DNA from: Pomacea canaliculata
Taxonomy: Eukaryota; Mollusca; Gastropoda; Architaenioglossa; Ampullariidae
Assembly (NCBI RefSeq): GCF_003073045.1
Contig: NC_037602.1
Coordinates: 496,001-560,000, forward strand
Direction of reading: 5' to 3'
Length of the DNA stretch: 64,000 nucleotides
The translations under genes were made by a program, and so were the position numbers. Each line of letters opens with the position of its first letter. Position 1 is the first letter of the stretch. The notes beneath the pieces were generated by a model. It did no database searches. It was not told the DNA's origin and was given only the letters and a program-made list of their open reading frames with translations. Below, piece after piece: positions 2,984-54,851 of this stretch.

Positions 2984-5396
2984 TCACAGCAGCTTTTTCA
3001 CCAATTCTCCAGCCTTGTCTGCAGCAACCACATCATCCCCACCGCCAATACATTTTCCATTAATGAAGACCCGTGGAACCTGAAATACATCAAAGAAAGC
3101 TAGATTATTCATTAAGGATAATCACTAACCTTTTCAGGTACATCCACACCAGGAATGAAGTTAAATTCCAGGGTTAAATGGTCAAAATGTCTAAGTGACA
3201 CTAGCAAGGCATGTTTGTGTCTGTCAACATTGTGATCCTTATTTGATAAGTCATTAGATTCGGGAGAATTACCAGACTGGAAGACTGCCGAGGTAATAGC
3301 TTTATTTAAGAAAGGATTGAATTCTGATCTTGGAAATTATAGACCAGTCAGTTCAACTTGTATTTTGTGTAACGATAGTTAGAGATGCTATTGCTAAATA
3401 TTTTGTAGAATATAGAATGTACATGTGCTCCACGAGGAGTAGCAAGGAATAAACTACTAAGAATGTACATGAAATGTCAACATGGATTTAGGGATAAAAG
3501 ATCTTGTGTGGCAGTTATTAGAATTCATGGAGAATATAACCTCAATACTGGATGAGGGCGAGGATGTCAATATTTTATATCTTGATTTTAAATGGGGATT
3601 TGATTTTATCATGTATGAAAGATTTCTGTCATGTATAAAAGATTACTAGACAAATTAGCAGCGCAAGAAGTGGGTAAAAAAATTGCTTAGATGGATAAGA
3701 AACATTTTAACAGGTAGGACATGACATGTCAGGGTAGGATCTGTAAAATCAGGTAAAGCTAAAGTGGAATTACTCAAGGAAGTATTCTAGGACCACTATT
3801 GTTCATGGCATTTTTTAACGTTTACCTAATGCATTGTCTAGTGCTTGTAAGCTCTTTGCCAACACCACCAAAATATATAACATTAACAATCACAGTGATA
3901 TTGACAAAATGCAGGAATGGTGTCAAAAATGAAAATTACAATTTAACATATCAAAATGTGGAGTTATGCATGTAGGTAAAAATAATCCAAGATTTATATA
4001 TAAAATAAAAATAGAGGATGAGTATCAGGGCACAAAGATATGTGATGTGGAGAAAGACTTGGGAGTGGACTCTGTACATTGTCTTTTGACTCGTATATTC
4101 AAAGAGTGATACGCAAAGCGAATCAGTGGTTAGTGTTATTAAAAAGAATGGATCTGGATTGGGAGATATTTTAAAGACTGTATAAAGCACTTGTGTGTCC
4201 ACATTTTGGAATATGCTAATCTAATTTGTCTCCCTTCTTAAAAAGACAATACAGTGTAGGGTCATGTAGTTAACAATCCAGTAATGTGCGAATTTGCTTA
4301 AGCCGCACAAAATGCTTGGATCCCAATTTTTTTACACTGTGGATCATATGGAGCTGGACATGGCCTCTCAAACACTCGAGACAGGTGCTGACAGCTATCA
4401 TTTTGGCATTTCGAATGTCCATGATTGACATGCTATGCACTATTGAGGATTAAATATTTAAATGCTGGATTATAACTTCAAAGAGGTATTTATAGAAGAT
4501 TAGTGTTTTACTTGTCAATAAACAATAAAATAACTATATATTTAAGCCAGAGACCACCTAAACCATGTGGACCCCAATCACCGTGGCTTAATGGCCCTAC
4601 ACTGTATTAATCGAAAGTGTTCAGAGAAATGCTAAAAAATTGTTAGATAAATGTGTGGACGTTGTATGCTAAATTAAGACTCCACTCTGAGGAATTGAGG
4701 GGGACATTATTCACATGTTATAAATTATTTCATGGTTATGTTGACATTGATATAAATGTATTTTTCTCCCCACAACAAAAATCGTTATAAATTGTGAAGG
4801 AAAAGTCTCTATTAAAAGTTGTAACACTAACAAACTTAAATTCTATTTTTCACTAAGAGTTGCAACCAGTTTGAACTCGCTTCCAACTAATATATTAAAT
4901 ATGCACCAAATTTAAATAGCTTTAAGACCTCTCTAGGAGACACTTAAACATTCATAGATCTGTTTTATTGTTTCATAGACATTAATGAGGGTACATGGTG
5001 ACTAGGCTGTCAGAAGCCACTCCCTACTACTATAACCAGGTGAATGTGGCACACAGTACTTACTGATCTTGCACCTGTTACTGTCTGCAGGTAGTTCTGG
5101 ATAGCGTCGCAGTCTGGGTTATTTTCAATTTCCATCACCTCATAATCATCAGAGGATAGTTTCCCCTCCTCTATCAGTCTTAAAAACACGTGTTTTGCCT
5201 TGGTGCAAAAAGGACAGTAGGACTTAGAGAAGATGATGACTTTCTTGTCAGCGATTTTGCTGTCAACGAGGGTTTTCACGTGTGCCATCGTCGTGTTTCT
5301 GTTCAATACGAAGCACGTACGAACTTTCAAACCTGTCGGCCAGTCGCGACAACTACGAACTAGCGATTGTGTTAATGTTAATAATGATCTACGCAT
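2984..5396 (-). CDS. GLRX: Dithiol glutaredoxin (two exons)
   Basis: Glutaredoxins use glutathione to reduce protein disulfides and glutathionylated proteins. Exons are 5396-5064 and 3079-2984, phase 0, with donor TCA|GTAAGT and acceptor TTTCAG. The fold landmarks are all visible: active site SYCPFCTK, the cis-proline motif SVPRVFI at the start of exon 2, and the GGGDD glutathione-binding turn. Starting at the ATG at 5288 (MAHVKTL) gives 106 residues, the usual cytosolic length. An in-frame upstream ATG at 5396 adds 36 residues rich in Arg, Leu and Ser with no acidic residue before position 18, which resembles a mitochondrial presequence, so both forms may be made. The active site is CPFC rather than the CPYC of classical Grx1 or the CSYC of vertebrate Grx2, so the exact subfamily is open. 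The gene is divergent from SERINC and its intron is filled by a LINE. Confidence 0.93.
3237..4990 (+). mobile_element. 5'-truncated CR1/L2-like LINE in the glutaredoxin intron
   Basis: Translation of the plus strand, with frame changes, gives reverse-transcriptase words typical of this LINE group: GELPDWKTAEVIALFKKG then NYRPVS, later GFRDKRSC, and LILYLDF-like text near 3575. After the inserted MITE it resumes with the C-terminal region (VQRNAKKLLDK, KLFHGYVDID, then a RFQL.. NSFKTSL end). The endonuclease part is missing. Many stops and frameshifts show it is an inactive copy. It lies antisense to the host gene. Its 5' limit is set by the first recognisable RT residues and its 3' limit is approximate. 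Confidence 0.8.
4252..4604. mobile_element. 353 bp Tc1/mariner- or pogo-type MITE nested in the LINE
   Basis: The ends are inverted: the left end begins CAGTGTAGGGTCATGTAG and the right end reads the complement CAGTGTAGGGCCATTAAG. Both ends are flanked by TA (4250-4251 and 4605-4606), the target duplication of the Tc1/mariner/pogo superfamily. The LINE coding text continues directly on both sides, so the insertion is younger than the LINE. There is no transposase frame inside. Confidence 0.85.
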
Positions 5397-5899
5397 GCAA
5401 TTTACTTCCAGCAGTTAAAAATCTGTTTTAAATGAATTGCAAGTCACCGTGCAGAAGACTGTGTTAAACGTCACGGAAAGTAGTGCTCCGACTTCGATGA
5501 CGTATGACTCATGTTCACGTGAAGCCGAGAGCACAACAAAACATTTAATTGAAAAAGCAAACTGTTATTTCGTATATAGGTTTGTTATTTGTTAAAAGAA
5601 GTTAGCTCTTATCACGGGCCTCTGTAATGCGCAAAGGTATAGGTTTGGCTGGTGTGGGTCGTGGAGGGCGCCCAGTGTACTTCCCCCATCAGGCGCGCCA
5701 TGCGTCACACACAAACATCAGCTGTGTCCATTGGCGGGCATCAACTTCCACTTGTTGCTAACGCCGCAAGCAGTCTCACTGCTGACCGCCACTAACTATT
5801 GACTCGCAGACTACATGACATGACTAATAAATTTCGATTTTAATTTGTGTAGTTGGATCCTCCTGCCGACTGGCTTTTGAAGGTGCAGGGTGTTTGAAA
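5397..5899. promoter_or_regulatory. Divergent promoter region of glutaredoxin and SERINC
   Basis: The two start codons face away from each other across about 500 bases. A compact block holds a CRE-like TGACGTA (5498-5504), an AP-1-like TGACTCAT (5505-5512) and an E-box CACGTG (5516-5521), with a further ACGTCACG near 5468. Local GC content is higher than in the surrounding spacers. Transcription starts cannot be placed from sequence alone. Confidence 0.5.
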
Positions 5900-8800
5900 A
5901 TGGGTTGTTGCACTTCCCAGGTTTGTGACCTACTTTGTGTCCTAGTCTTTCCTTCCGAGCTAGTTTTGGCAGAAGTAAACAGTAGGAAACTGGAGAGAAC
6001 GGTGCAGTTAGAAAGCGGTGGGTTATCTATTTTGTCTAATGAGACCCAGTTATACACCTAATAATCAGTCGACAGTAATAACTAATTAGCAAAGTTACAC
6101 AGTCACTATAAACATCCTTTGGACCGTTCTTCTGTTAGGTCCTGCTCACAGAAAATGGATTGGTATGCACCAAATACACTCACTAACAAGAGTAGTTACC
6201 TTCTTTTTCTATTGGAGTGGTTGTTTGCCAAGATTAAAGACAGTAAAATAATCCCTTACCCGCTTGTAACAATTTGCTGGGAAAAAATCAGCAATATGAT
6301 TAGTTGTATTCTAACAAAAAATAGTTATGTTCAAACCTAATTAGGTAGTTTACGTAGAGAAGGAAAATGAACATACAAGTGTAATACACTTTTCTTTGAA
6401 AGAATTTGATGAAGAGCTTACATTTTGATATATACATGCACACATAAAAAGGGGTCCTATCTTTTACTACCTATACATTTAGTAGGCTTACATACATCTA
6501 AAAGAGAGAGCTTGAATGTCTAGGTCGAATAAGGTTTAGACTATCTTTTGCTTTTTCACTTGACTGTCTTTTGTGATACATATCCATTTAGCAGGATGGG
6601 CAGAAAATTCATAAGGCTCATAAGTAAAACTTCATTGGAAGGGGAAAGTGAGGCATTCCTATAGTTTTAAAAGTTCTTTTCAGGAAATTATTTGAAAGTA
6701 TCTTTGTTATATTGTGTGTCTGCACATGTCTATGTGTTATGTCCAGCTGTCCTGTTGCTATGGTGTACAGCTGGTCTGTTTCTTGTATCTAGCTGGCTTG
6801 TTGCTGCGGTCCAGCATCATGTGGCCTGTGCTGCAGCTGTCTTCCAGAGATCCGCGAGTCCACAGGAACCCGTGTGATGTACACAGTCTTCCTGTCTCTT
6901 GGCTTCATTATCCAGTGCCTCATGCTAGTGCCTCAGGTCCACCAACTGATCAGTGATAATGTAAGTGGTCAGACTTGAATTTTACAATGTGTGTATGCAG
7001 ACACAATACTGCTGTAAAGGAAGAAAACTAAATGGGCGAGCAGAGGGAGAAAGTGAGATTATGCATGTCCTGCTCATTTCGTGCTCATGCATTTCTTTCC
7101 ACATATCCTGCCCTTATGCTTTTTTTAATTTTTGCATTGTAAAATTGTTAAATAAGATGAATAGTTTAAATAATATAGTAAATAATAAATAATGTTTAAA
7201 AAATGAATGTATCAGGAGATGATGGGTAATACATCATGGTTATTGTGGTTATTATGGTTGTCCTAGATAATGGGTTTCAACACCACCTGTCTTGCCCTGT
7301 CAGCTGGTGAAAACTGCAGTCTTTTGATTGGCTACCAAGCTGTCTACCGCATGTCATTTGGCATTGTTGCTTTTTTCTTTATCATGATGCTTTTAACACC
7401 GTGTGTTCCATCTTCCAATCACTGGCGGGCATCCATACAAAATGGGTAAGTTGTTGTTTTCTCATTCATGTATTAACCAATCTATCATTTTCCGTGTTCA
7501 TGTGCATGTCTCTTAGTCCATCTTCACATATTTACTTGCCCTGTAAGCTGTAAATTTTGTATATTTTGTCTCTGATTCATCGGTATTTCTGTCTACCCTC
7601 TATTTGTCATCATATTTTATGCCTCTGTATTCTGTCATAATTTTATGTCATATGTTACTGTGAAATAATATATATCATTGTCATTCATGCAAGGCTGTTA
7701 TTTTTGGCACTTTCACATTCATGTTGCTCTTTGTTTTAAAAGTGTCAAGCATATGTTTTTTCATTATTTGAACATTAATTTTTTTGTATGTGTGGGTGCA
7801 TGCATGGGTGCCCACATCTACATGATGCTAGCTACTGGTTTTTCAAACTTCTGGTGCTGTGTGGACTGTGTGCTGCAGCTTTCTTCATTCCAATGCAGCT
7901 GAGCATCTGTAAGTATCTTGCTATCCCTAACTTTCATAGTCTGTAAGAACCTTGCTATCCCTAACTTTCATGGTTTGTAATAATCTTGCTACCACTAATT
8001 TTCATAGTCTGTAAGTGTCAAGGTTTTACCTAAATGCCTGTCTTTCATGCAAGAGAAAGTTTACTAACTGTGGCTGTGTCTTTCATGTTTTTATTTTTTT
8101 TGTTGGTAGAATGACTTTTTTTTTTATTGTGACTACATTTATGTCAAACATCTTGCTAGCGTTTGGCATTGACATAAATAAATATTATTATTATTGTGAT
8201 TATCTTTTGTCACTGTTAACATTTTTTCACATTTTTCTACTGAGTATCTAAGGTCTTCTTAGGATGTGCTTATTGAGGTTCTTTCTGACGGAAATGCTAA
8301 GTACACTTAGTTAAAAGGAAAGGGTTAAAAGATGTTGGAATGAAACCAGCTTGAAGTAAAAGACGATAACATGTAGGGGCTGTGTGTATGTGTTTTTGTT
8401 TATATATGCATGTGTGTGTGTTTATATGTGCATGTGTGTGTGTTTATATGTGCATGTGTGTACATGTGTTTGTGTGTGTTGTCAGACTGGATGTACATGG
8501 GAATGGCCGGTGGAGTGCTGTTTCTATTATTACAGCTGCTGCTGCTTGTTGACTTCACACATGCCTGGAATGCCACTTGGTTGGTTTTTGCATGTTTATT
8601 CTTTCTAAATGGCCAGTGATGAATCATAGCCAAATTGAACTAAACAGCACTCATATCTACAGTTTTAGTTTGCATGATAAACTTACTTTAAAGCCCAAAT
8701 CTTATAGGATGATAAATCTCCATGAAGCGGACAACAAATCCATACCAGCAAAACAAAGATGTTTGGAGAAGGATAAGACATCTAAGATTAGCCATCAGTA

Positions 8801-11800
8801 TTTATGTTCATCTTGTTTCAAATGGTAGCCATTGTTTATTTTTCTGTTACAGGATATGCTAGTAGTTCTACTGGGGTAATAGTTGGACATTTTGATTCTA
8901 GACATGCATGCCAGTGGCCAACCTGTTTTTTTTTTGTTTTTTTTAATTTCTGCTGTTTATAATTTTTGACTGTTTGGTTTCGACATGAATTAACACTTGG
9001 CCTTTGAAGAGAAGATCTAAACACACAATAGCATTGTGCTATATTTTCTTAATAATTTGTTTATGTATTGTTACTGATTTATCATTATTATCGCTATCAT
9101 CATTTATCCCATTATCGATACCAGCTGTGCACCAGTTCTGGAAGGATGTTTGGGGGATGGGGGGAGATTTGCTATTATGTACATGTTGAATGATGTGATT
9201 AAGTTACTAATAGTCCATAGTGCAGGAAACATATTGAAAGATACTGTGTGGGGGGGAGAGGGGTGTAAGCACTTGGGTGATGTATGCATGCCCGCATGTG
9301 CTACTTTGGGTCAAATTTAATAATAACTGTGCAAAGATAACTTGGAATCGGCAACCTGCTAAACCTATGTTAAAAGAGAGAGTGTATGTGTAGCACTTTG
9401 AAATGACCTCATGTTTGTGTTGACTAAAAATGGAGCCTTTGTGTGACTTTCATTTTGTTGATTGTTTTTATTTTTAAATGTTTGCTTCAGGGTAGGACGT
9501 CGGTATGGTAAACGCAACACATTTGGCTGCATTGGTAAGTGATTTATAACCACATTGGACTGGTAGTTGTTAATCTGTCTTTTTTGAATAGATGAATTTG
9601 TCTTGATGAGATGTTAACACTTGGATTATGATGTGTGTACTGTTAAGGTGTGATGTACAAAGTAACCTGTACACCAGTAGGCATATTAATTTGACTCCTA
9701 ATGACTTGTGATAAATTCAAATGGAATAACAATATTTACAATAATTAAAATCCAAATAAAGGATATGAAAAATGAAGGATATTGCTGTGATCTATTTAAT
9801 TTTGATCAACCAAGAACACATTTCTGTGCTCAGAGCAAAAATGGCCTAGAATTTACATTCCTGCAGACACGTATCATAACTAGCCAGGTAAAGTTTCCTA
9901 CACTAGTACATACCTACAGATCCTAAGGTAGGCACAATAGCACAAATACTAGCGCACACAATGCTAGTAGTAGCACACAGTCCTGTAGGTGTGTTATGTC
10001 TCTGTTATTTACAACTGATTTTGTTTTTAACATTGAGTTTAGGTGGTTGTACCTGTTTTAGAAACAAGTGGTGTGAGTTTTACAATAGTTGCTGAAGGCA
10101 CTGTGACTAAGTTTGAGTTAATTTGGTCATGAGACAGAGTTAAAATGAAAATGACTATTTCAGCGACAGGGGCGTGCGCCATTATTTTTACATCGTCGCA
10201 ATCCTGGGCATGGCTCTCCTTGTCTACTACTATGCTGTGGCTGACTGTACCACCAACCGCATCTTCCTGGGCATTAACGCTGGCCTATGCATCCTCCTGT
10301 CTCTTCTGACTATTCTTCCATGTATCCAGAAGCGTAAGTAATACAACTATTATGGATTTGTGAAAGTAATAGAAACTCTTTTATGGATTTGTGTAGATGT
10401 ACGTAGCTGTTCCTAGATCACTTAAGTGGATTTTGATGGGTAAGATGTAAATGTGAGAGCAACATGTTAACCATTTTTGTCAGGTATGAAGCGGTGTTTT
10501 GGCAAGGTGATATTATGTGATAAGTATGTGTCAAGTCACTGAGCCTGAAGTAAATAATTATCTAAATGTGTATGTGTTTGATGTGTGGACATTTATACAG
10601 ACTGGATACATTGTTGGTGAAAAAGTTAAATTGTTGTAATGGTATCTTTTGGTTCTGTATTTTTGTTCATTTTATTTTCATCTCCTTACCATTTTTCTGT
10701 TTCCTTCAACTTTCATCATTCTTTTTTTTATTCACAGTCCATTTTACTCTCACCTGTTTTAATTGTCTGTTACTTGCTTATCCACGTATCCACTTAAATG
10801 TCATTGCCTCAACCACAGATCCATCTACATGTCTTATTCATTGGTCAACATGTTTATCCATCGTCAGTAAAAATGTTCAAGTTATTTATTTTCCCAAATC
10901 TTTTGCATTAAAAATAATCTGTTCCTCGAGCATTACTCCTTACGCCAATCAACAGAATTCTGGTCCCTTTTCTAACCCTTTCTTTAACTTTTTCGTATGT
11001 TGATTAGTTGTTAATAGTTGTGATTAATAGTCTGTTGACTAGTTCACCTGCTCGTCTTTTTCTGCAGATTTATGATACTCTTCCTCCTTATTGTTTGTTT
11101 CCATATCCCTCTTTGCATATTCTGTTTTTCATTTAGTGTCTGCTATTTTTATTATTTCTCCTTCCGTCCATGGTATTCTGTCCAAGTCTCCTCCTTGTCT
11201 CAAGTCCTGAGCGGTCCGGTGGCGCAACGGTTAGCGCCTGTCACTAATACAGTGAAGGCTGGCTGCTCAGAGTTCATTTCTCGTCTCGGGCATGCTGTTC
11301 TTTCTCTGCACGTGGCATCTGTTTACAGGGCTGGCTGCCTTGCGTAATATAGCCTCAGTTGCTGGCATGGCGTAAAACACCAATCTTTTCTCAAGTCCTG
11401 AGCATGCTAGCTAGGAGTTCCTTCCTGAACATGATCATCGCCTATATAAATCACGTTTTTTTATGATTATTATTATTAATCTGTAATGCTTTGTAAACAA
11501 AATAGGCAAAATTTTGGATAAATTTTGTAGAATTACTTGTAAATAAAGGGGATCAATGGAACTGAAAAGGATTCTTATAGAATTTTTAGCTTTGCCTTGC
11601 TCTCTACTGTTCTTTTCCAAGTCTGGTTTGGCCACCCAACTCTCCTCATCCCCTGAGGATTCCAGTCAAGTGCCTGCCTGGCAATAGTGTCAGCTGGTTT
11701 GCATGGGGTGTGTCCTTTCCAACCCCATTTGCGCTTTTTGATGTCTTGGTTAGTAGCATTCTGGTTGGTTCTTTTTCACAGGCTGCTGTTGGAGATCTTT

Positions 11801-14800
11801 CAGGCCATCTTATTGCCAGAATATGGCGTAGGCATCGGTTGGTAAAGGTCTGGAGCTTGTTGTAGATGGTGTTTGTCACTCTCCAGGTTTCAGAACCATA
11901 CAGTAGGACTGCCTTCACATTGGTGTTGAAAATGCAGATCTTACTGTGGAAGGATAATGCTCCGGAGCTCCAGATGGGCCGTATGCTGTTGAACGCATGC
12001 CTGGCCTTGTTGATCATGGCTTTTGATGTCAATTTACGCTCCACCATCGTTAACAATGCTTCCCAGATACACGAAGCGATCTGTTGTCTCTAGAATATCT
12101 TAACATTGTCCAATCCCAGATTAAACAATTATATTGGTAAAGTACTAGCATAATTTTATTAACCCAACTGACCTTGTAATTATTATGCATATTTAACAAC
12201 ATGTAGATTTTGGGGGGCATTTGATTGGGGAGGGGATAGGGGGTGAGCCAATGTGACAATTTACAACCATTATGCAATGCTTCTTAAGTATAAAATTAAA
12301 TTGTTAACTGTTATTTATATAAAGCGAGGTGCAGATCCACAAACTGTAGGAAACATCCACTTTGCTATAAAAACGAGTTCAACCTCAATGAAAGAGAGCT
12401 AGGCATTTTCTTTGGAGTAAATGTTTTTGAATATAAGTACATATTCTAGAATTTTCCTACCCTGTGTTTAATAACAAAGTTTTTATTACTATTCAGCATA
12501 CCAGACCTAAGAGTCTGTGATACCTCTTTATGTGCAAACATAAACTCAAAACTTATGTACATGTATCTAAGCTAAGCATTTGGCATTTTTTTTTCATAAC
12601 CTGTTAGTTTGTCTGATTATAACAGAATCTAGCATTTGTCACTGAGTGCTTGCACCTCAGCTGTAGAAAAATGTCTGAAGTAACTTTGATTTCTGCTGGT
12701 TACAGGAAATCCTAATGCTGGGCTCCTGCAGGCCTCAGTCATTACTATGTATGTTGTTTACCTCACATGGTCAGCACTCACTAGTGAACCTCCTGAAGAA
12801 AGTATGTATATGTCTTGCATTCACTGAAGGTGGTTGGGGTAGTCTATGCATGTATGTGTCTGTGATTTTTATGTACATTCATTCACATTCTCAGTCTTTG
12901 TTGATAGACTAAGTTTTGTAGATTTAACAAACCTACGTCTAATTTCTATATCTATGAAAAGCTGGTTGAAAAAAGTTTTCTGTTTAATTGCCCTTTCAAA
13001 AGTGCTTTTTATTGCAGTTGAAAATATCATCGACACTCTGAAAGCACTAGCAGGTTCACAACAGGGGCATACTGTCGTGGCGGCAACAGCTGCGACTGTT
13101 CCACTGGTGGCGCCTTCGATGCCACTTGTTGCCAACGGAAACAATCAGTTAAAGATACATAATGTGTCCTACAAATGCCGGCCAGACCCAGGTTTTCCTG
13201 AAGGAGACAGGATTGCTGCCTATGCCGGAGTGTGCATCACCTTTATCATGGCTGTGTATGCTAGGTGAGAGCAATAGTTCAGTGTTGCAGAATGTTGATG
13301 TCAGGCAGGTAGAACCAGCAGTTCTTAGAAGACAGTGATGCTAATTAAGGTGAAAGCTGTAAGTTAAGGAGAAAACTGTAATTACGGTGAGAGCCAGTTA
13401 ACGTGAGTGCAAGCTGACAGGCTCCACTTACAGTGGGTGAAAGTGATAGTGGACAAAAAGGCTATTAAAAAGGTGAGTTGGCACAGCTTGAACATTTTAG
13501 CAGGATTGTAAAGAGGCAAATTTGAGAGGTCACGTGTTTGTCATTATGATATTGACATGGGTAGCATCCACATTGATCACATGATCACATTAGCTTGGTA
13601 TTTCCTCTTACAACAGTACATCAACGAAGTCTTGTTCTATTGCAATATAGTTCTATTTACTGGCTTCAGATTAAGTTAGTTTAGTTTATAGGAGCGTAGA
13701 AAGAAAATTTCTACTTGGATAACATTGTTGACTATTTCATCAGCATGTTATTAAAGATGCTAATGATGTTGTGATATACTGTTATTAAAGCTAAACATGA
13801 TAGTATTTTTTCATTGCCAGTCTCAGGACATCAAACCAAGCACACAAACTTGGACTTCGAAAGAAGGTATGTCATCAAGATCATAATTACTGTTTGCATA
13901 ATGATAATGTAATGAAGAGAAGCTTCAAGTGACCAGTTTTAGAGATAATGTTGTATGCACCTTTTCATTTGTAATGTGCAGTCATTCACATGTTTTCAAG
14001 TGACTAGTTTTGTATACACACCTTGCTGTGTTTTCAAATAACAAGTTTTAGAAATAATGGTATATACTTCTCAGTTTTGACTTGCACTCAAGCACATATG
14101 CATGTCTGCACATTAAATTTCTTTGGCTCACCTTTAGACTAGAGGAATATGCTTTAAGTTGCAGTTAATATTATACATGAGCACATTGTACAGGGCTATA
14201 CAAACTTCCATAAAGAAAAATGTCTGTGGTAATGTGGTAACCTTTTATTTGATCTAACAAGTTATTGAATTTTATACATATAATTATAAATAGGTAACTT
14301 GAGGCCCATTCTTACCAGTTTGGTGTGTCATGAGTTGTTTGGTTCCTTGTCTTACAGGACAGCTGGGCATGTTGCTGTTGTGTGATTAAGAAACGTAAGT
14401 ATCTCAGTGTCTTGTGTAAAGTGGAGGCATTGATTAGTGTACAACAGGGGTGTTGATTAGTTTACAGTGGGGGTGTTGATTGGTGTAGAGTGAAGTGTTT
14501 ATTGGTGTTCATTGGGGTGTGTTGTTCAGTGTACTGTGGTGGGTGATGATTAGTGTATAGTGGTGTGTTCAGTGTACAGTGAGGTGTGCTGCTGCATGCA
14601 CAGTGGGATATTTTGTTCAGTGTACAATGGGGTATGTTTTTCAGTGTACAGTGGGGATGCTGATTGGTTTAAAGTGCAGTGTGTTTGTCAGTGTGCAGTG
14701 GGGTGCTTGGATCAGGGTAATTGGATGTAGCCAGTGTAGACATGTTTTTGTTAATAACTTTAGTGGAGTGTGTTGCACAGTTCAGTGGAATGTAGATCAA

Positions 14801-16222
14801 CAGAAGAGTTTGGTCAGGTCAGCAGATCAGTCAGGCATTTTGCTCAGCTATAGGGGTCAAGTAGATCTAAGTGAGGTCAAGTAACTTCTGTAATATGCTA
14901 GTTGTTCCTGTCTTATTAATGTAATTCAAGCAACAGGCTGTTTGTATCTTGTGAAATTTTCAGTTTATTTCAAGACATGCATGTCCAGTGTATCAAGAGA
15001 GATTACCTTGTCTTTGATAAATCTGTCAGAGGGGACCATAAGGAGTTCTAATATTTATCTTTTACAACTGCAGGAGACAATCCATCACTGCTTGGAGGCC
15101 AAAGGGTCATTTACAATGAGGCTGAAGGTGTCAAATATCCCTACGCCTTCTTTCACTTTGTATTTTGCTTGGCAGCTTTCTATATCATGATGCAGCTGAC
15201 CAACTGGTACAGGTAGTTTCTTTGTACAAAAATGGAAGATTACAATGTGGCTTGTGAACATGCATTAAGAGGGTGCTGTACATCAAATAAAACGTATTGC
15301 TATACCTGGGCTTCCAATCAAAGGTCACATTTTCAATTCTTCCTCAAGCCAGTGGGTATTAACTCTGCAGTCTTGGTTGCCTGATTTATCAAGCTTTCTT
15401 GCATTCTTCATGGCAGTAAATCACTTACAGTTTACATCTGTTACAGCCATTAGATCTGGGAACCTTTACCATTTAAAACAAATAATTTTGTCTGAAAAAT
15501 CTGCCATGATTCACTAGGAATATTGATTTGGTTTATCTTTCAGCATATCTTTGGTTTTATTCAACAGGCCTGCTGAATCAGATCTCAATAATTTTGGGCT
15601 AAACTGGGCAGCTGTTTGGGTGAAGATGGCATCATCTTGGGTTTGTGTTGTCATTTACCTCTGGACTCTTGTTTTTCCTCGTTTGTGTTTTGGTCGAAAT
15701 TTGACCTTCATTCAAAATCCACAACCTGAGGAGATGAGGATGAACACTCTGGATGACGAGCAAGAGAACACAATAGATGGTATCAGGACAGAACCTGGAC
15801 ATGTTTACCGGTCATCATCATCTCACCAGTTGCGATCACCTGCAGATATCCACCAATCTCATGAGTCTCTTGGTGGAAAAGCAAAGGCTGGAGGACAACG
15901 AACACCAGTCCCCAGACCACGATTACACTCATCTCAAGAGTCTCTCGGTGCAAAAGGGAAATCCTCAGCTCAATCACGGTCAAGATCACCTGCTCCAAAG
16001 CCAAGACCACGCTCAGGTGATATCCATCTCTCTCAGGAATCACTGTCTGGGAAGAGAAAGTCATCAGATCATGCACGATCGCGATCACCTGCTCCCAAGC
16101 CACGGTCGAAATCAAATGATGTCCACCAATCTCAAGAATCACTCTCTGGGAAAGGAAAACCATCAGTACAACCACGCTCAAAGTCCCCTGCTGTGAGGCC
16201 AAGGACAGTATTCAAAGAGTGA
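5900..16222 (+). CDS. SERINC: Serine incorporator (SERINC/TMS family) with a repeat-bearing C-terminal tail
   Basis: SERINCs are multipass membrane proteins with lipid-scrambling activity, first described as serine incorporators. Exons: 5900-5920, 6793-6960, 7267-7445, 7832-7908, 8486-8579, 9491-9502, 10164-10333, 12706-12801, 13018-13264, 13821-13866, 14358-14394, 15074-15212, 15568-16222. Phases agree throughout and give 646 residues. Family hallmarks: N-terminal MGCCTSQ joined to [69 protein letters not shown], and [13 protein letters not shown] near residue 450. Transmembrane segments are evident at about 35-53 and 92-110 and in most later exons; N68 and N79 are glycosylation sequons. The tiny first exon was placed by family match, good Kozak context and phase. 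The 12 nt exon is inferred. Ordinary SERINCs end soon after the last membrane segment (~420-470 residues); here residues 476-646 form an extra polar tail with four repeats. Most similar in feel to SERINC5, but paralogy is not settled. Confidence 0.93.
7903..8013 (+). repeat. ~36 bp tandem repeat starting at a splice donor
   Basis: Three diverged units read CTGTAAG-TATCTTGCTA-CCCTAACTTTCAT-GT in outline. The first unit contains the real donor of SERINC exon 4 (GT at 7909), and the following units carry donor-like GTAAG or GTAAT at the same place. Confidence 0.75.
11213..11388 (+). mobile_element. tRNA-derived SINE with perfect target-site duplication
   Basis: The 176 bp element opens with GGTCCGGTGGCGCAACGG, containing a pol III A-box-like TGGCGCAACGG, and ends GGCGTAAAACACCAATC. 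It is flanked by an exact 15 bp direct repeat, TCTCAAGTCCTGAGC, at 11198-11212 and 11389-11403. Close copies lie at 30380-30555 (minus), 37029-37205 (plus) and a fragment at 36434-36535 (minus). It sits in a SERINC intron. Confidence 0.88.
11570..12100 (-). mobile_element. LINE 3' fragment (RTE-like, RNase H-less type)
   Basis: The minus-strand text includes [45 protein letters not shown] and, after frame changes, a NPQG..R.GWP..TWKRT-like end. This is the region after the reverse-transcriptase core in many APE-type LINEs. The 5' part is missing and the frame is broken, so it is a dead 5'-truncated copy inside a SERINC intron. Confidence 0.75.
14430..14790 (+). repeat. Degenerate GTGTACAGTGGGGTG repeat
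   Basis: Irregular copies of a ~25-30 base unit (GATTAGTGTACAGTGGGGTGTT in outline, variable) fill the SERINC intron after the exon ending at 14394. They create long open frames with Cys and Val bias that have no domain support. Confidence 0.65.
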
Positions 16223-21482: not shown

Positions 21483-24400
21483 TCATGGCTCGCAGCCCAA
21501 CACTTCGATGAACATCACCGGATCTGTGCCGCTCCACCTCTGTGGTATGACCTGTAGCTCGTCAGCAACAACAGGTGAAGGGAGCATCAAGATCAAGGCC
21601 TTGCCTTTCTTTGCAGCTGTGTTGAACATCTAGCGGGCAATGACAACAGCAGTAGAGGTCGGTGAGCAACTCGTACACCACATGAGACGTCAGCACGTTG
21701 ACAGTCACTAACAGGCACGTCAGAACATCCACAGGACTACATGCAGCCATCAGCTTCACGGGACTACTGGCGTTATCACGCTCATTGGACTATATATAGG
21801 CGTCAGCACGTTCACAGGGCTACATACAGGCGTCAGCATATTCACACGATTACATACAGACGTCATCACATTTACATGACTACATACAGGCGTCAGCATA
21901 TTCACACGATTGTATATAGCGTCAGCACGTTCACATGACTACATACAGGCGTCATCACGTTTAAATGACTATATACAGACGTCAGCATATTCACACGATT
22001 GTAAATACAGTCAACACATTCACAGGACTACATACAGACGTAGCACGTTTACACGACTACATACAGACGTCATCACGTTCACATGACTACATACAGACGT
22101 AGCACGTTTACACGACTACCTAAAATCGTATCATCAAAGACTAGTGATAGTCAAGTCTGTTAGAAGTTTACGCTGTCTTTGGCTCACGTCACTGAGCAGT
22201 CTTCACGTTCTTTTCACTTCCAATATGTCCTACCGTTCCTCCTCTCCCCTCTCCCCCACTGTTCTTGTGGCCCCTCCTGGAAATATCCATTCTCTCCCCC
22301 TTGCATCCTCGTAACTAGAAGGTACCACGACATGTTTTCAACATTTTAAATTTCATCAGAAGATATGTTTACTCATTAGGCACCATCCTGTGGTGTACTG
22401 TTCAACAGAATGTCTTCTGTCTGGAAGCTGTTCACCGCTGCCCATACACTGTGATTCTAGAGTCCAAAGTGCCCCATCCCCACCATCAGTGGTTACCGAC
22501 TAATGGGTCTGCTAAGAACACACATGGTCGTTGACTGTGACGTATCTCGCAATGGAAACAGTGCAAGAGGTTTGAGAAAGAGCACTGTTAAAAGATGGAT
22601 GATAGACAAAAGAGAGGAGTCGAGGCGGCGAGCTCAGACCTTGATGTTGCCAGAATGTGTGACGACTTGGGTCCAGTAGGGAGTGGACGTTCTGTCTCTG
22701 TGCTTGAGGGTGAACACCGTCACGCCATCTTCCCCTGTCTTCTCCATGACGGGGGCCTTGACCATCAGCCCCGTCACCTTCATGGGATGAGACATGCCGA
22801 TGATGGCGTAGCCGTTCAGGTTCTCAAAATCCTTCGAACTGCCAAGGTTGGTGAAAAGCAGGCGCTTCGGTTCGCCGAGGCTGTTGAGACATTCAGGCGG
22901 CACTGCCAGCACAACCACCACACACCTGACACTAATACATGTTGCACACTTGACACACATATTGCACACTAGACACACATATTGCACTAGACACACAACA
23001 AACTGCATACTAGACACACACACATATTGCACTAGACACAAACAAACTGCATACTAGACACACACACATATTGCACACTAGACACACATACATATTGCAC
23101 TAGACACACACATATTGCACACTAGACACACTTGACACTAGCATACATGCGTCAAGCACAGCCACAAGAATTTGCCAGTACCAGTCAGCACACGACACAC
23201 TAGAGAGTAGCAAACACAGCACAGACACAACACACTTGACAGTAACACAAGCAGCTCAAAGTGACACACTTAAAGTAACACAGCGAGGACATCCCTGACA
23301 GCTGTAGAGCCAACGACACACCTGACACAACACAGCCATGACACTAAACAGTCGTACACAGTACAGCACGACCACGACACAACAGTGACACATGCTACGG
23401 CCCACGCACACATCAGGTAAGACTAATATTACTGTGACACGTCTGGCTGTGACATGACAGAGTGTTTACCTGACGTGTGGGGGCTGAAATGGACGTCCAC
23501 TGCTATTTTCTCTTCATGCTTGCCCTCGTCCTCCACCGAATGTGGCTGAATCTCAACCTCCATCATGTCCATCTGCTTGCTGACGTCTGGTGAGTGGTGG
23601 ACAGGACACACAGTAGTCACGCTGTCATCAGAGCCTGACACTAGTGTGTATCCTGTGCAGCTCACGTCCCTACTTATGTATCTGGGCATCTCACCACTTG
23701 TCCCCAGGCTCTCACAAAACCTATGCCTCTACCTCCCCACTTAGTGTGTCTGTGCCTGTAACCCCCCCACACACACACACACAGTGCATGTCTCTAACCC
23801 CACTAGTGTGTCTATGCCTCTCACCCTGCTAGTGTGTCTATGCCTCTAGCCCCTACTAGTGTGTCTATGCCTCTCACCCCGCTAGTGTGTCTATGCCTCT
23901 CACCCTGCTAGTGTGTCTATGCCTCTCACCCCACTAGTATGTCTATGCCTCTCACCCCACTAGTATGTCTATGCCTCTCACCCCGCTAGTGTGTCTATGC
24001 CTCTCACCCCACTAGTGTGTCTATGCCTCTCACCCCACTAGTGTGTCTATGCCTCTCACCCCGCTACTGTGTCTATGCCTCTCTACCCACTAGTGTGTCT
24101 ATGCCTCTCACCCCACTAGTGTGTCTATGCCTCTCACCCCGCTACTGTGTCTATGCCTCTACCCACTAGTGTGTCTATGCCTCTCACCCCGCTAATGTGC
24201 CTACTTATCAGGAAGCAAGGTCTCCTCATGGCATCAGTTACGAGTGTATAAGAAGTCTGGTTAGGAAGACAGACGACCTAAAGGCCTGCATACTGCGCAG
24301 AGAAACGGATTTCTACAAAAAAAAGTGCGAGTCCATATTTTAAAGTGATCTTTCTACCAATGCAAAGCTTCATTAAAGGAACTCAACTGTTTGTTTGCAT

Positions 24401-30867: not shown

Positions 30868-33800
30868 TCAGATGCTGTAGACAGTGGTGGTGTACTGACA
30901 ATGTTTTGTCTCCAAAAGCACGACTTCCTCTTCATCATCGTCTTCTTGTTCTATGGCCTTCGCAGCTTCTATGGCTAATTCTGAGTTCAAGCCTTTCAGC
31001 CTTGGTGTATGTTCGGCGATTATTTCGACTTCCACTTTCTCTGAACATAAGGAAAGTGTAACAAAAGTGTAAACACTTCAAAGACTTGTCGTAGATTTAA
31101 CCAAAAAGAAAAGTGTGTAAACAAAACTTAACATTAGATCAGGTGTTATCATTTGTTGCGAAAGTGGTTTATAAAGTATGAGCGTTCAGAGGTGTGTAGA
31201 GAACAAATGGCGGAGAGATGGAGGGAGGTGAGAGATAGACTGACAGCTGACAGGAAGTAACCCCAACCCTGCATACGACACCATTCATGGTATTTTCGGA
31301 GGTGATCATCACCCGAACGTCTGAATAAGAATAGCAGCGAGTGGCGTTATAAAGAAGCCAGGTACCCAGCCAGCCACCCAGCCAGCCAGTCAGACGTTTT
31401 TGAACTTACTCGTTTTTTTTCTCGGGAGAAGCAGGTAATCTTCAGGAAATTCAGATGATTCGATGAGCGCATCCTCTATGACTTTTTCTTTGATGTCTGA
31501 CTTCAGGTTCTTGATGTCTTTCTTCAGTTTCTTGGCGTCCATTACAATCACCTCTGATCGTGAAGGTAAACAGTCGTCAGAGAGGTTTCGTTAGCCACCA
31601 AAAAAGACCACCAATGTGATAGTGTGTGACACAAGTTGTAGTCAGTACTGAGACAGGTGTATGTGTGACACACAAGATGTACTCAGTACTCAGACAGGTG
31701 TATGTGTGACACACAAGTTGTAGCCAGTAATCCACAAGGTGTATGTGTGACACACAAGTTGTAGTCAGTACTCAGACAGGTGTATGTGTGACACACAAGT
31801 TGTAGTCAGTACTCAGACAGGTGTATGTGTGACACACAAGTTGTAGTCAGTACTCAGACAGGTGTATGTGTGACACACAAGTTGTAGTCAGTACTCAGAC
31901 AGGTGTATGTGTGACACACAAGTTGTATCCAGTACTCAGACAGGTGTATGTGTGACACACAAGTTGTAGTCAGTACTCAGACAGGTGTATGTGTGACACA
32001 CAAGTTGTAGTCAGTACTCAGACAGGTGTATGTGTGACACACAAGTTGTAGTCAGTACTCACACAGGTGTATGTGTGACACACAAGTTGTAGTCAGTACT
32101 CAGACAGGTGTATGTGTGACACACAAGTTGTAGTCAGTACTCAGACAGGTGTATGTGTGACACACAAGTTGTAGTCAGTACTCAGACAGGTGTATGTGTG
32201 ACACACAAGTTGTAGCCAGTACTCAGACAGGTGTATGTGTGACACAAGTTGTAGTCAGTAATCCACAAGGTGCTCCTAACTGAGACAGGAGGTATCAGTG
32301 ACACAGGTGGCAAAGGATGCAGGTGTTAGCGAGTGAACTAAAAAGCGTTAGTGACAGTGTTAGTGAGTGAGGCAGGTGGTATCGACAGTGGTTACAGGTA
32401 ACTCAACCATTTAACAATGTCACCAAGGCTGTTTGACTATGTCCCTGAGTTAATTTGTGCACGTAAACCGTAAAGTAAGGGAAGATTTCACAATACCTAG
32501 ACAAAGGTGAGTTACATTATTTGAGTCGTCGCCCAAGACGCGGCTTCATACCAAAGACACAAGGTCCAGTAATGTTCTGAGAGAAGCTGTCTCAGGAATG
32601 GCAAACACTGTACTCATAGGATTGAAAATGGTGTAGGGCTCGTCTGGCTTGACAGGGAAGGGACACACATACAGGTAGACAGACGGGTGATGGGACGGAC
32701 AGACATCAAATACTGACGAGGAGAGTTGTCTTCTCTTCAAAGACAAGAAACTCTTACCAGGATCTTCCGCCCCTACATTTTGGCCGGTCAGGTCTGACTG
32801 CAGCACCAACAGATCTTTGTTCACTTTCTTTGTTTCTTCTTCGATGACTTTTTCTGATCATATGAAGGTAATCTCACTGATTTTCAAGTATAGTCATGGT
32901 AATACAAATTGCAGTTGATCAAGTTTTAGTAAGTATCCACGTGATCGGAACCAGACTAGACATAGCTAGTGACGACAGCTACTAATTCTACTGACAGACG
33001 TTGCTAGACTAACAGACACACGATGACTACTAACACACACACACACACAATCTTGTCTGTCACTATCATTCTACACAGTCACACAAGACTATTGTACATG
33101 ACAGTGTGGGGGTAGGGCAGGGGGAGTGGGTGTGTGTATGTGTGTGTGAGTGTGTGTACACCTGTGTCTAACTCTCTCGTCCTACCACACAGGTGGACTG
33201 GTGCTCTGAGTGCTGGCTTACGCTCTATGTTGGAGACATCGAGGGCATCGCGAAGGATCATCTTAGCCATGGAGAGGGAGCAGATGACGAGCCTGACCTC
33301 AAGGAAGGGCACACCTGACCAGGTGAGCGGCGTAAAGCGTATTGACCTGATCTCCACAGGCTTCAACAGGTTGACCACCGACGGAATATCCGCGAAGGAT
33401 AGGTCACCATGGGGTTTAAACTCCTGCGCAGTGTACAAGAGGCCCCAACAGCTTCTAAGACTAGTTTCTGTTAAAAGCTCCAGACATACACACCCAAACC
33501 ACGACACAAAGCTTTCATCTACAACAATTGACACACTACCTGACCCCACTTCCATGTGCACAGGAGCTCACCACAAAACACGAGCACAGGGTGTGATCCC
33601 AACATGTTCACAGAACGACAACTTCTACTAAGACAGTTTTACAGCCACGTCATCAGCAAGTCACAACTAACCCTAACTCCGTCAGTAGCAAAAACTACTA
33701 CACAACTATTATACATTTGACTGTTAACAACTGTCTCACAACTATTACACAGCTGTTACACAACTAGCGAACAATTATTACACAGACATTAGACAAGTGT

Positions 33801-44300: not shown

Positions 44301-47300
44301 CATCTCAGTCCCTTCAGAATAGCCTTAGAATCGCCCGTAGCCCTCCATTCACTTACAATGTCATGGTAATCCTTAATTCACATTCACAGTCTTTCACGTC
44401 TGCTCTAGCTCATCATTCACACGTTCAGTATCACATCAGTTGTAGCTAGAGTTGGCTCCCCTAACACTGATCATCTGAAACACTAAACATCTGTGAGAGC
44501 TGTTACACTTTCACTTCTGAAGGTGTTACAACAAGAGAAGACTAGGTGTGTACTTTACTGTTACCCAGTGGATAACTTAAACAGAGGACAAGGTGTGTGC
44601 ATTGCGTGTTAGCTGAATAGTTGAGCTTGAAGACAATGGTGATGTTCACACACACACACATGTATATATATCTATGCGCGCGTGCTCGTGCGCGCCATAC
44701 ACAAACTGAACATTGGTGTCAGTCGAAAGTGTCGGACTGACATTGTCACAGAGTGGAAATAGTGTCAGTGCTAGTGTTACGAAGCCCGAGCATTCCGCTG
44801 GCTAATGGCTGACACAAAGCACAGCCTGGGTGGCACATTGTGAGTAGCTGAGGGTGAACCTGGGTGAACTGGGTGTCGTCAACTAGTGTCACCTCACCCT
44901 AAACAGATCAAACGACGTTTGCCGGCTCGTTAAAGTAAAATGATTTCTCGGCTTTGGTTCGCTTGGCCTCCGATGAGCCTGGTGCCAACTTCTGCAATGT
45001 TGTTGTCTGCGGACACAGTGGCTGGCGCTTGGTGTCGACTCTCGTGTCGTCACGATCCAGTGAGTAGGAGGAGAGGGTGTGTAGAGGACATAATGCACAG
45101 CATGTGCCAACAGGAGGAGGACGGACTGCCTACCTCCTAGCACCGATCCCCCTTCCTCTCCCCACCCTGGTGGGGCTGACGACGTGGGGCGAGAAGGCGA
45201 AGACACCGCCAGATGGCGCACGACCACCGCTGAGTGTGTGGAGGCGTGGGCGAGTGTCAAACAGTCCCAGACTCTCGTCCTCCCCCAACCCTCCTACCCT
45301 GTTTGTTGTTACTGGCTTCGTCACGCTAGTCTTCGCCAGCCTCTGCAGTCCCCAGACCTGCTGGAACCTGCTGTGAAACTCCCGGAGTAGAGGCTACTTC
45401 TTGGCGCCAGATCCGCCTACAGGTCCACCTGTGCACTGGCGTAAGGACCGGTGGTGGGTCTGGCAGAGAAGTCACCTGATCCGGCTTTCCCTTGTGTCTT
45501 TTATGAAAAGTTTACATCTGGTGTCGACTTTGCTCGTCAGTTCTCGATGTGTTATTAGCAAATAATCAAGCCCTTCAAACAGTGCAGACCCCGCAAGCAA
45601 AAATAACAGCAAGGTAGGCTATCCCAGGGATAGGAAAGCGAAGCTATTGTCGGTCAGGTCAAGTTGCCCCTGGATTGATGCCAGCGCTTCTTACAGGACG
45701 ACATACTTGTGCCGGTCACAACAAAGCACTAGACCTATGCAATAGACAGACCTACAGTACAGTCGGTAGACACCAGACAGTTCCAACAACTTCCTAGACA
45801 CGAGATACAACATCCGTGGGGCTGCTTCCTGTGTCAAATGTTCAATTTATAAGGAACTTGATTGACGTACATCAAATGTCTGCAACCGACAAACTGACCC
45901 CGTGTACTACGTCATCACGACAAACTGACCCCATGTACTACGTCATCTCATGACAAACTGACCCCGTGTACTACGTCATCTCATGACAAACTGACCCCGT
46001 GTACTACGTCATCCCATGACAAACTGACCCCGTGTACTACGTCATCTCACGACAAACTGACCCCGTGTACTACGTCATCCCATGACAAACTGACCCCGTG
46101 TACTACGTCATCCCATGACAAACTGACCCCGTGTACTACGTCATCTCACTGACAAACTGACCCCGTGTACTAAGTCATCTCACGACAAACTGACCCCGTG
46201 TACTACGTCATCTCATGACAAACTAATCTCGTCTGCTGTCTGCTGTCATGACAAACTGGTCTCTTTACTATTCGACAACACCGTGTCTACAGGTGCCACT
46301 GCAAAGTCTGACAACAAGCACGTGACGTGCCTGGGTCCACAGAAGCTCGGCAGGTGACGAGCAATGAGAACAGCGTCCATTTGCCGAAGCTGCGCACTGA
46401 GCACTCGTCATCCTGCCTGCCTTGACCACGTGACTGACGGTGTCTCTAAGGACAGTTACAGGGACCCCGGGACACTACCTGGCTACTCTAGGCGGTGATT
46501 TCAGCTCAGGCTGACTGATGTGCCGCATATCCTGTCTCCACGAGTAGACACGCAATGTGCCGTCAGCTGCTGTAACGACAGTTTCGATTGGACTGTTGAC
46601 ATTAGCACCTACAGGAAGTGTCGTCAATCACGCTGCCTGTCACTGTCACGTGCTCGAGAGCAGACGTAACCGCCATGGAAGTGCGGCGTAAGTGGAGGAG
46701 GATGGTGGCCAGGGCCGCCTCTTGTGGCTGATCGATCACGAGGCTCGCATTTTATTTCTCCCTCAATTCCCTGCACCCGACACTTTCTCAGCGCCATGCT
46801 ACAGCCCCGAGGTCCTCAGCCTGTCGTCCACTGGGGGCTGCTGTCAGAGGTCACCACGGTCAGTGTCTGTGCACCAACATGTCATCAGTGAGGAACACGC
46901 TGCAAGAGCCGCTGGCGTTGGGTTCGCTTCCGTATCGCTCTCCGCGTAGCGATTTCTTGCTCTTATGCTTACTTTATGCTTACTCGTACGCCGACTCGCA
47001 AAGCCATGGCAATGCAGCAGTTGCTGAGCTCCTTGAGTGGGATGATAACATTATTGAGAAAAAGCTAACTTTGTTTGTTTTGGGGTTGGTTTTGTTGTTG
47101 GTGTTGGTTTTGTTTGTTTGTTTTTTTTGTTTGTTTTTTTTTTTTTGTTTTTTTTAGGGGGTCAGGGTCATCGCCCGTCTGGTCAGCGCATTACAACCTA
47201 CACCCTCCCCCATAGGTCCCGTTAGGCGTCACTCAAACATTCCACACATAACATTATGTACACATTTTTGCTGTCAGATTCAGTGATCATCCAAACATCG

Positions 47301-53300: not shown

Positions 53301-54851
53301 TCTAGTGAACTGCCGAATTTACACCGAACCCCTTCCTCTTTCTCATCAAACAGACTGGTACAATAAAAAAAAATATGGTTCAGCGAAAAATACTTCAGAA
53401 GGTTGGAGAACAGCAAGACTACATGGTCTTGTGGCCACTTTCATCCCAGATAAATGGTTTCGGAGGAAGCCCACCACGCAAACAGCTGATTTTATACAGG
53501 ACGACAGCTTTTATCGAGAGCTCTTCACTTTTTCCAAATGATAGTGCAGTTCTTTCAAATGTTTCAGGGCTTCTGCTTACGCAAAAGATTGCGTACAGTA
53601 CGCATTAAAAGTTCGGAGGACCCCTTCAATTTTCGTCAATGGGGTCCCATTCAAATTTGGGCGAAGAACAGGGACCCCTTAAAAATCTGAAGAAGGGGTC
53701 CCTGGGACCCCAAAGAATTTAGCCTTAGCAGAAGCCCTGTGTTTGCCTTTTCCCGAGTATAGTACACTACTTGGGGCTGTAGTTGGCCTTCACTACAGTA
53801 GAGAGAAGTCGTTTGGCTCTGTCTTTAGAACTTACAGTAGAATGCATGTGATGCTCTGGTCTGTACTGAACTGTACATTACCAAGTTACAGTAATTATAT
53901 GTTACAGAACACAACATAACTAGGTGTGAATTAGTTGTACATGACAGACAGGATATATAAAGGTTGTAGCTGAAAGTTCTACTTCGTGAAAACTTGTCCA
54001 AACTTGCTTCCTACTTGCTTCATTACATACATAACTCTAAACCATAACTCTTACATACAAGTGTTACTCTCACAGCTCACACATTCATATACTCCAGCCA
54101 CATGTACATATCATTGTAGTCATAAGTAATGCTGCAGGCAGCTTGTGCTTAATACTACAGCCATAGTGTAGTGAAAACTGTGTTGACACTCAGTACTACC
54201 GATACATTGCACTGTCTACTATCCTGTGTCTGTATTATGTCTACTGTGTCTATCCTGTGTCTATCCTGTCTGTACTGTGTCCACTGTGTCTATCCTGTCT
54301 GTACTATGTCTACTGTGTCTATCCTGTCTGTACTATGTCTACACCATACCAAATGTTACAGCCATCCTACACTTCACATGAATGCCAACCTGTTCTCAAT
54401 ATGACACGAATACATTTTGGTCAAGAAGTGTCTGGCACGACAGTCGTCATTGTTGTGTTCAAAGAGACACAGGAAGATGGAGTTGAAGCAACTCACCTTT
54501 AGTACAGATGCCGGGCTCCTCCCTCTGTAGCGGGAATCTCGGCAAAGGTGGTCCAGTGGAAGGTGCAGGTGGTAGACAGGTGAGTCCTCGGTCACACTTG
54601 CCCAGGTAAGCCAGGTCGCCGCCACACGTTTGACCGGCCGTACGAGCGCACACTGGACAACACCCACACACTCCCGTTGTGACCCCACCCTCACACCTCA
54701 GGTCGGCGGGGTTCCAGGTGGTGCAGTGAATCTGGTGACAGGGAGGGCAGATCAGACCCATGTCATCTCTGTGCCTGTCGCGTGCACTCTCCACCTCACG
54801 AGGTCCACGCGCCGCTAGCGCCAGAAGCATCACAACTCTCAAGGATGCCAT
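41372..54851 (-). CDS. Secreted IGFBP-domain protein with a second Cys-rich module (5' part, 3' end uncertain)
   Basis: Exons: 54851-54497, 50835-50727, 42250-42052 and, less certainly, 41457-41372; phases agree. The start MASLRVVMLLALAARG is a signal peptide. Residues 35-116 hold an IGFBP N-terminal domain with all 12 cysteines: CPPCHQIHC, CEGG, the hallmark CGCCPVC, and a PGIC close. IGFBP domains bind insulin-like peptides; related single-domain proteins (for example perlustrin) occur in mollusc shell. The next two exons encode a Cys module: CRPKCTLQYCTRHPRAIC followed by PCQGACQHTSCRACAVEDEC and FQCLKQFGRC. The fourth exon (CDIEMNHWMLRLFQDEKKE) faintly resembles the start of a SPARC-type calcium-binding region, a guess only. 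No firm stop was found: a short exon at 41004-40950 would end it, or it could splice in phase to exon 34407-34358 of the F5/8 C gene. Introns carry minisatellites and a LINE scrap. Confidence 0.75.
43200..43290. repeat. 32 bp tandem repeat, about 2.5 units
   Basis: The unit AGGGAACATGGTGTGGGAAC plus CTGATCCACAGC starts at 43201, 43233 and 43265. It lies in or near the intron between exons 50835-50727 and 42250-42052. Confidence 0.85.
43291..45870. other. GC-richer intron sequence, no supported feature
   Basis: Within the long intron of the IGFBP-domain gene. Apart from a short CTAACCGACACA repeat (44137-44193) and a CA/TA microsatellite near 44650-44690, nothing is recognised. Open frames here are GC-driven and lack domains. 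Confidence 0.4.
45880..46240. repeat. 33 bp minisatellite carrying TACGTCA in each unit
   Basis: About ten units of GACAAACTGACCCCGTGTAC plus TACGTCATCTCAT. Nine units keep TACGTCAT intact; one reads TAAGTCAT. TACGTCA is a variant of the CREB/ATF site. It lies in an intron of the IGFBP-domain gene. Confidence 0.93.
46241..48399. other. Intron sequence without recognised feature
   Basis: A T/G homopolymer-rich stretch is present at 47065-47158. No domain, RNA gene or clear transposon end was seen. Confidence 0.4.
48400..48510 (+). mobile_element. Small RTE-like LINE scrap
   Basis: The text around 48430-48490 translates in part to RPISLISQPIKVMLTFIFNR, the RT block 2 of RTE-like elements. Flanking sequence is not recognisable, so only a short remnant survives. 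Confidence 0.55.
49420..49641. repeat. Two copies of a GCCGAGAC/GTCTCGGC inverted-repeat hairpin
   Basis: Perfect 8 bp stems GCCGAGAC ... GTCTCGGC occur at 49420-49427/49458-49465 and 49595-49602/49634-49641, with loops of 30 and 31 bases that share CTCTTGC and CTGCT-TTAGT/CTAGT. The sequence after each hairpin is also partly repeated (about 49487-49562 against 49930-50008). Confidence 0.7.
51300..51550 (+). mobile_element. Possible second SINE family member
   Basis: A pol III B-box-like GGTTCGATACCC lies at about 51359-51370, preceded by a degenerate A-box region, and followed by a tail ending in ACCTGACCTGA. No second copy or target duplication was found in the window, so the call rests on the B box and general SINE shape. 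Confidence 0.35.
52020..52380. repeat. GT-rich low-complexity repeat
   Basis: Runs of GTGTGTG with GTGAGAG and AAGCGTG spacers. The 130-146 residue open frames on both strands are composition artefacts. Confidence 0.8.
53565..53739. mobile_element. 175 bp palindromic-end MITE
   Basis: Ends are inverted: CAGGGCTTCTGCTTA on the left and the complement CAGGGCTTCTGCTAA on the right. The flanks share TGTTT (53560-53564 and 53740-53744), suggesting a 5 bp target duplication. The interior has several GGGGTCCC/GGGACCCC words in both orientations. The superfamily is unclear; a hAT relative is likely from the CAGGG end. Confidence 0.75.
54230..54345 (+). repeat. CTGTGTCTATCCTGTCTGTA tandem repeat
   Basis: Several 17-20 base units with the words ACTGTGTCTATC and CTGTCTGTACTATGTC. 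Located in the first intron of the IGFBP-domain gene. Confidence 0.8.

Follow-up and report, generated by a model that had tools for sequence, protein, structure and literature searches.

The last exon of a SERINC gene of Pomacea canaliculata extends the encoded membrane protein by 173 residues beyond its last helix, and four related repeat units in this extension carry six matches to the motif Px[PAV]xPR, five of which do not overlap. Judged from sequence, the best reading of the extension, to which we give about an even chance of being right, is that of a cytosolic tail with an array of docking sites through which CIN85/CD2AP adaptors would bind multivalently. The gene lies in the window, by which the whole stretch of 64,000 nucleotides analysed here (G000:C13:496001-560000) is meant, and coordinates refer to this window unless another contig is named. 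Genome searches covered 440,159,624 bases in 24 contigs.

The SERINC gene model (5900-16222, plus strand) comprises 13 exons with GT/AG junctions and a single open frame encoding 646 aa. Exons 1-5 (5900-5920, 6793-6960, 7267-7445, 7832-7908, and 8486-8579) and exons 7-12 (10164-10333, 12706-12801, 13018-13264, 13821-13866, 14358-14394, and 15074-15212) are separated by a provisional exon 6 of 12 nt (9491-9502), which was positioned from the reading frame and the alignment with the family and has no bearing on the tail. The remaining part of the TM9-10 loop, TM10, and the tail come from the last exon (15568-16222), which ends with a TGA stop codon. The predicted protein matches the Pfam Serinc profile (PF03348) over positions 1-431 of 434, with a score of 413 bits against a cut-off of 24 and an E-value of 1.5e-123. 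Human SERINC3 and fly TMS1d each align with it in two stretches, leaving residues ~275-340 unaligned. On the basis of profile and alignment, the tailed gene is a genuine SERINC. To our knowledge, a short C-terminus is usual in SERINC proteins, and no definition of the family demands one.

Several other features were observed in the window. An open frame on the minus strand (5010-5414) with a glutaredoxin match (PF00462) is arranged head-to-head with the SERINC start (5900, plus strand) at a distance of ~0.5-0.6 kb, an arrangement in which both could be driven by one bidirectional promoter. Within a SERINC intron, a DUF6451 fragment (PF20049, E 1.8e-18) occupies positions 11646-12089 of the minus strand; it is presumably of the type found in non-LTR retrotransposon remnants. 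By eye, the string GITQGSILGPLLF in an ORF at 3763-3975 (plus strand) resembles a fragment of a reverse transcriptase, and the region 11205-11400 contains a tRNA-like box sequence, ggtggcgcaacggttagcgcc ... agttcatttctcg, possibly belonging to a tRNA-derived SINE. An Rfam search over the window at gathering scores gave no match. An open frame on the minus strand at 54459-54878 contains an IGFBP domain (PF00219, E 3.3e-8) and possibly encodes a secreted protein with a single IGFBP domain. Minisatellites are located at 23788-24203 (unit of 26 bp, 16 copies, 90% match), 31622-32260 (41 bp, 15.6 copies, 95% match), and 45888-46224 (33 bp, 10.2 copies, 94% match).

The C-terminal tail corresponds to residues 474-646 (15701-16219, plus strand), which bears out the extension of about 171 residues after the last membrane segment proposed in an earlier note on this DNA. 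Its 173 residues include 31 Ser, 18 Pro, 18 Arg, and 13 Lys, and a Pfam scan of 168 tail residues alone matched no family. The four repeat units, all on the plus strand, follow each other directly: unit 1 of 25 aa (15851-15925), unit 2 of 33 aa (15926-16024), unit 3 of 33 aa (16025-16123), and unit 4 of 32 aa (16124-16219), which reaches the protein end. Each of the four contains ESL followed by KxK; SQESL is found only in units 2-4, unit 1 having SHESL, and eight of the first 12 columns are invariant in residue among units 2-4. The ESL cores are located exactly where the same note had placed them, at residues 528, 553, 586, and 619. The intervals between them are 25, 33, and 33 residues, and therefore the exact 33-residue register, which had been recognised for the last two units, is shared by three. 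The DNA identity among units 2-4 is ~66% over 96 nt, so the duplications are not recent. A recent slippage array was rejected on account of this divergence and because Tandem Repeats Finder, at a score of 30, did not call the array. We infer that the tail is probably disordered.

The PxxxPR motif has been described as a ligand of CIN85 (PMC2833206, PMC3805583), whose single SH3 domains are reported to prefer Px[PAV]xPR (PMC12730246), and a Cbl-b peptide, PARPPKPRPRR, has been co-crystallised with the SH3A domain of CIN85 (PMC7927047; PDB 2BZ8). Scanning of the snail tail for Px[PAV]xPR located, on the plus strand, PVPRPR at residues 542-547 (15905-15922), PAPKPR at 570-575 (15989-16006), the overlapping PKPRPR at 572-577 (15995-16012), PAPKPR again at 603-608 (16088-16105), PSVQPR in unit 4 at 627-632 (16160-16177), and PAVRPR at 636-641 (16187-16204). 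The six residues of PKPRPR are those of the Cbl-b core in PDB 2BZ8. The motifs starting at 542, 570, 603, and 636 had been predicted at precisely these positions, while PKPRPR and PSVQPR had been overlooked. The tail is indeed rich in motifs of the CIN85/CD2AP type, but the pattern Px(P/A)xPR originally proposed for them is too narrow, PAVRPR and PSVQPR having Val at the third position and fitting only the wider Px[PAV]xPR.

The count of six compares with a mean of 0.034 and a maximum of 2 in 20,000 composition shuffles. A six-frame translation of the window contains 347 ORFs of at least 60 aa, among which the tail ORF has six motifs, three others have one each, and the rest have none. In a set of 1115 ORFs of at least 60 aa from other loci, which are overlapping and non-random and from which L006-L009 and L013 were excluded as lying on the SERINC gene, nine have one motif and none has two. 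Part of the excess is one motif multiplied by tandem duplication, and therefore the count overstates the independent evidence; the latter consists of the retention of the motif in otherwise diverged units and the extra PSVQPR in unit 4. The SH3-ligand scan returned no PxxP in the tail versus a shuffle mean of 1.7, a zero that also occurred in 15% of shuffles, and thus the tail is without a class I or II SH3 core. Neither canonical SH3 ligands nor AP-2 signals were detected in the tail, and no match was obtained there to 14-3-3 modes 1 and 2 or to the amphiphysin-type PxRPxR. YxxPhi, the acidic dileucine [DE]xxxL[LI], NPxY, the clathrin box, NPF, DPF/W, PPxY, and PTAP were likewise absent from the tail, so any endocytic link would depend on SH3 adaptors alone.

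Comparison of units 2-4 in the coding frame revealed 57 identities in 93 residue comparisons, while the five other frames gave 29-41 in 90. In a neutral simulation that took the majority consensus as its starting sequence, matched the observed substitution numbers, and allowed no stop codons (5000 runs kept of 107,917), the mean number of identities was 41.9 with an s.d. of 4.4, and 57 was reached in 0.08% of the 5000 runs. The NG86 dN/dS values between the units were 0.24/2.23, 0.31/1.04, and 0.36/0.85, with dN below dS in all three comparisons. The codon-position count of 14:13:25 points in the same direction and is not significant (p=0.077). Sixteen of 31 columns are invariant in residue, 11 of them with synonymous codon differences, and the motif retains its Arg via AGA, CGG, and AGG codons. 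Taken together, the frame identity, the neutral simulation, the excess of dS over dN, and the codon-position count indicate that the repeats probably encode protein and are conserved at that level.

Pfam Serinc matches in the genome numbered 14, and all of them fall on two genes, the tailed gene and a gene on contig C4. The latter is represented by seven profile matches over most of PF03348, with positions 113-132 and 275-342 uncovered, and its reading frame closes with GRDFN-stop immediately behind the last helix. The tail was not found at any other place when the genome was searched at protein and DNA level, matches outside the SERINC locus having E >3, and on these grounds an origin of the tail from a mobile element or a multi-gene family was rejected. 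A weak match on contig C9 was obtained twice (E 3.5 and 8.1), and the portion read consists of a Ser/Arg stretch that lacks the repeat unit and whose frame is interrupted by stops. Since the tail is unmatched elsewhere and the C4 gene stops after the last helix, the extension is confined to one of the two SERINC genes found. The earlier note stated that known SERINCs end shortly after the last helix; here, the tail is absent from the C4 SERINC and is left unaligned by the two solved SERINCs matched. Searches for homologues of the last exon in viral_contigs and genome_contigs, both collections without molluscs, gave 6 and 37 pattern matches, none of which was confirmed. Among the literature matches listed, no title or abstract opening mentions an extended or SH3-binding SERINC.

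Searches of the genome with two SH3 profiles yielded at least 55 and at least 66 matches, and 58 rows, comprising the first set and some neighbours, were examined. On contig C6 (~24697462-24702000), two SH3 domains are located ~4 kb apart, with a third, split by an intron, between them. The best solved relatives of SH3A are CIN85 (2bz8) and CD2AP chains, and those of SH3B are CD2AP (3u23) and CIN85. For SH3C, GRB2 chains (E 1.5e-21) ranked ahead of CIN85 SH3C (1.3e-19), which may be explained by the presence of two SH3 domains per GRB2 chain, with their scores adding. The C6 SH3A domain is identical to human CIN85 SH3A at 32 of 53 residues and keeps all eight tested ligand contacts, which were chosen from residues named in PMC7927047 and concern SH3A only. 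Proline-rich frames are found downstream, as is, ~13 kb on, a coiled-coil-looking exon, which is at most a candidate exon of the gene and whose frame had no Pfam match above the cut-off. We read the C6 gene as the CIN85/CD2AP relative of the snail, with three SH3 domains.

A candidate Cbl gene is located on contig C7, where the single Cbl_N match in the genome is followed by a Cbl_N2 match. An open frame located ~23 kb downstream of Cbl_N and equally oriented (L074:9729-9998; G000:C7, plus strand) carries PVAPPR before a UBA domain, and another open frame, between Cbl_N and the UBA frame, carries PSPHPR. The frame with the UBA domain probably represents the exon that encodes the C-terminus of snail Cbl. 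If these frames are Cbl exons, the snail would retain the adaptor-ligand pair of mammals.

The C-terminal tail of SERINC3 has been described as intracellular (PMC12846431), and therefore the snail tail should face the cytosol. The last exon would extend SERINC into a probably disordered, basic cytosolic tail, in which a docking motif recognised by CIN85/CD2AP SH3 domains would recur in four related units, three of them in 33-residue register. Each chain would present five non-overlapping motifs to adaptors with three SH3 domains each, which in mammals are further trimerised via a coiled coil, so that individually weak contacts would add up. The tail might thus gather SERINC into adaptor-rich patches or vesicles, setting its amount at the surface, and by analogy it would connect SERINC with the functions that CIN85/CD2AP have in endocytosis and in relation to actin. 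In B cells, six SLP65 motifs and three CIN85 SH3 domains, trimerised through a coiled coil, have been described to form condensates with vesicles; the single-motif constants given for SLP65 and CIN85-PRM1 peptides range from 6 µM to ~4 mM, and for some pairs no heat was measured (PMC10923291). It is from such analogies that we infer binding in the snail, multivalency, and clustering or endocytosis. The weak and widely differing affinities of single motifs count against the docking array, as does the origin of the motif copies by duplication. As for the coupling to endocytic adaptors suggested in the earlier note, it gains from a probably coding, repeated tail with CIN85/CD2AP-type motifs and from an adaptor gene with kept SH3A contacts, while the tail itself offers no endocytic sorting motif to accompany them.

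The same array of SH3 ligands could instead be read mainly by beta-PIX (ARHGEF7 family) or another SH3 protein, in which case SERINC would be connected with Rac/Cdc42 and the control of actin instead of with endocytic adaptors. A beta-PIX-type SH3 domain with ARHGEF7/6 as its best solved relatives is encoded at C14:3603254, and a complex of the beta-PIX SH3 domain with a Cbl-b peptide has been described, as for CIN85 (PMC3805583). The profile matches given above also amount to dozens of SH3 domains in the genome. However, with one SH3 domain per chain, beta-PIX would be expected to profit less from repeated motifs than a three-SH3 adaptor, and we regard this alternative as rather unlikely. The basic character of the tail might point to another function, namely that of a phosphorylation-controlled segment (RS-like, with RSRSP and RxxS) binding acidic lipids or kinases, with PxxxPR as a by-product of a unit built of Ser, Arg, and Pro. 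The net charge of the 136-residue repeat region is ~+19, ten Rxx[ST] sites are present, and RxxS is enriched in the tail (8 vs 3.2 in shuffles, fraction 0.006). Nevertheless, neither S[RK] nor SP exceeds its frequency in shuffles, and the motif preserves both its P and its R, the latter through three different codons, so that we place this explanation, too, on the unlikely side.

The conservation of ESL and KxK in every unit, together with the invariant columns at the start of units 2-4, would also be expected if the ESL-GK-K half of the unit were functional and the proline part were a spacer. Yet the tail has no Pfam match, and the PxxxPR half is likewise kept in all four units; such a division of roles appears very improbable. 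Finally, one other forward and one reverse frame are open across ~420 nt of the tail, as could be the case in a neutral or lineage-restricted extension without function, or in an untranslated one. This has a slim chance of being correct in view of the frame-specific identity, the outcome of the neutral simulation, and the absence of AATAAA and ATTAAA inside the last exon, the first such signal being at 16538.

The docking array for CIN85/CD2AP thus remains the reading that we prefer. Human SERINCs have been reported to flip lipids (PMC10359404), and SERINC3 and SERINC5 are described as lipid-flipping antiviral factors whose surface level is lowered by HIV Nef through AP-2 (PMC12846431, PMC10359404). 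Going further, one could hypothesise, although we consider it doubtful, that one SERINC of the snail is a membrane-anchored client of CIN85/CD2AP condensates, that is, a lipid-flipping protein in which multivalent SH3 binding, together with phosphorylation of the Ser/Arg stretches next to each motif, switches clustering and thus the local asymmetry of the membrane or the amount at the surface, the tailless paralogue being free of such control. With a tailed and a tailless SERINC in one genome, the snail would provide a natural test of the effect of adaptor coupling on SERINC. Moreover, the tail could illustrate how internal duplication builds up an SH3 docking array at the terminus of a membrane protein.

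The membrane core of the snail protein is common to the SERINC family, including human SERINC3 and fly TMS1d (PF03348). The difference lies in the 173 residues past the last helix: the alignment reaches snail residue 479 for SERINC3 and 473 for TMS1d, and 17 and 50 residues of these chains, respectively, tags included, are left beyond its end. The C4 SERINC of Pomacea belongs to the same family but has no tail. The CIN85 ligand of Cbl/Cbl-b (PDB 2BZ8) represents the same motif class, with an identical PKPRPR core; however, Cbl-b is a ubiquitin ligase with its site in a soluble protein, whereas in the snail an array is found on a multipass membrane protein. The proposed arrangement also resembles that of SLP65/BLNK, in which several PxxxPR-type motifs in a disordered region face three SH3 domains (PMC10923291). 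SLP65 is described there as a vesicle-associated cytosolic adaptor with six motifs that differ in sequence, whereas the snail SERINC spans the membrane and carries its motifs in similar repeat units.
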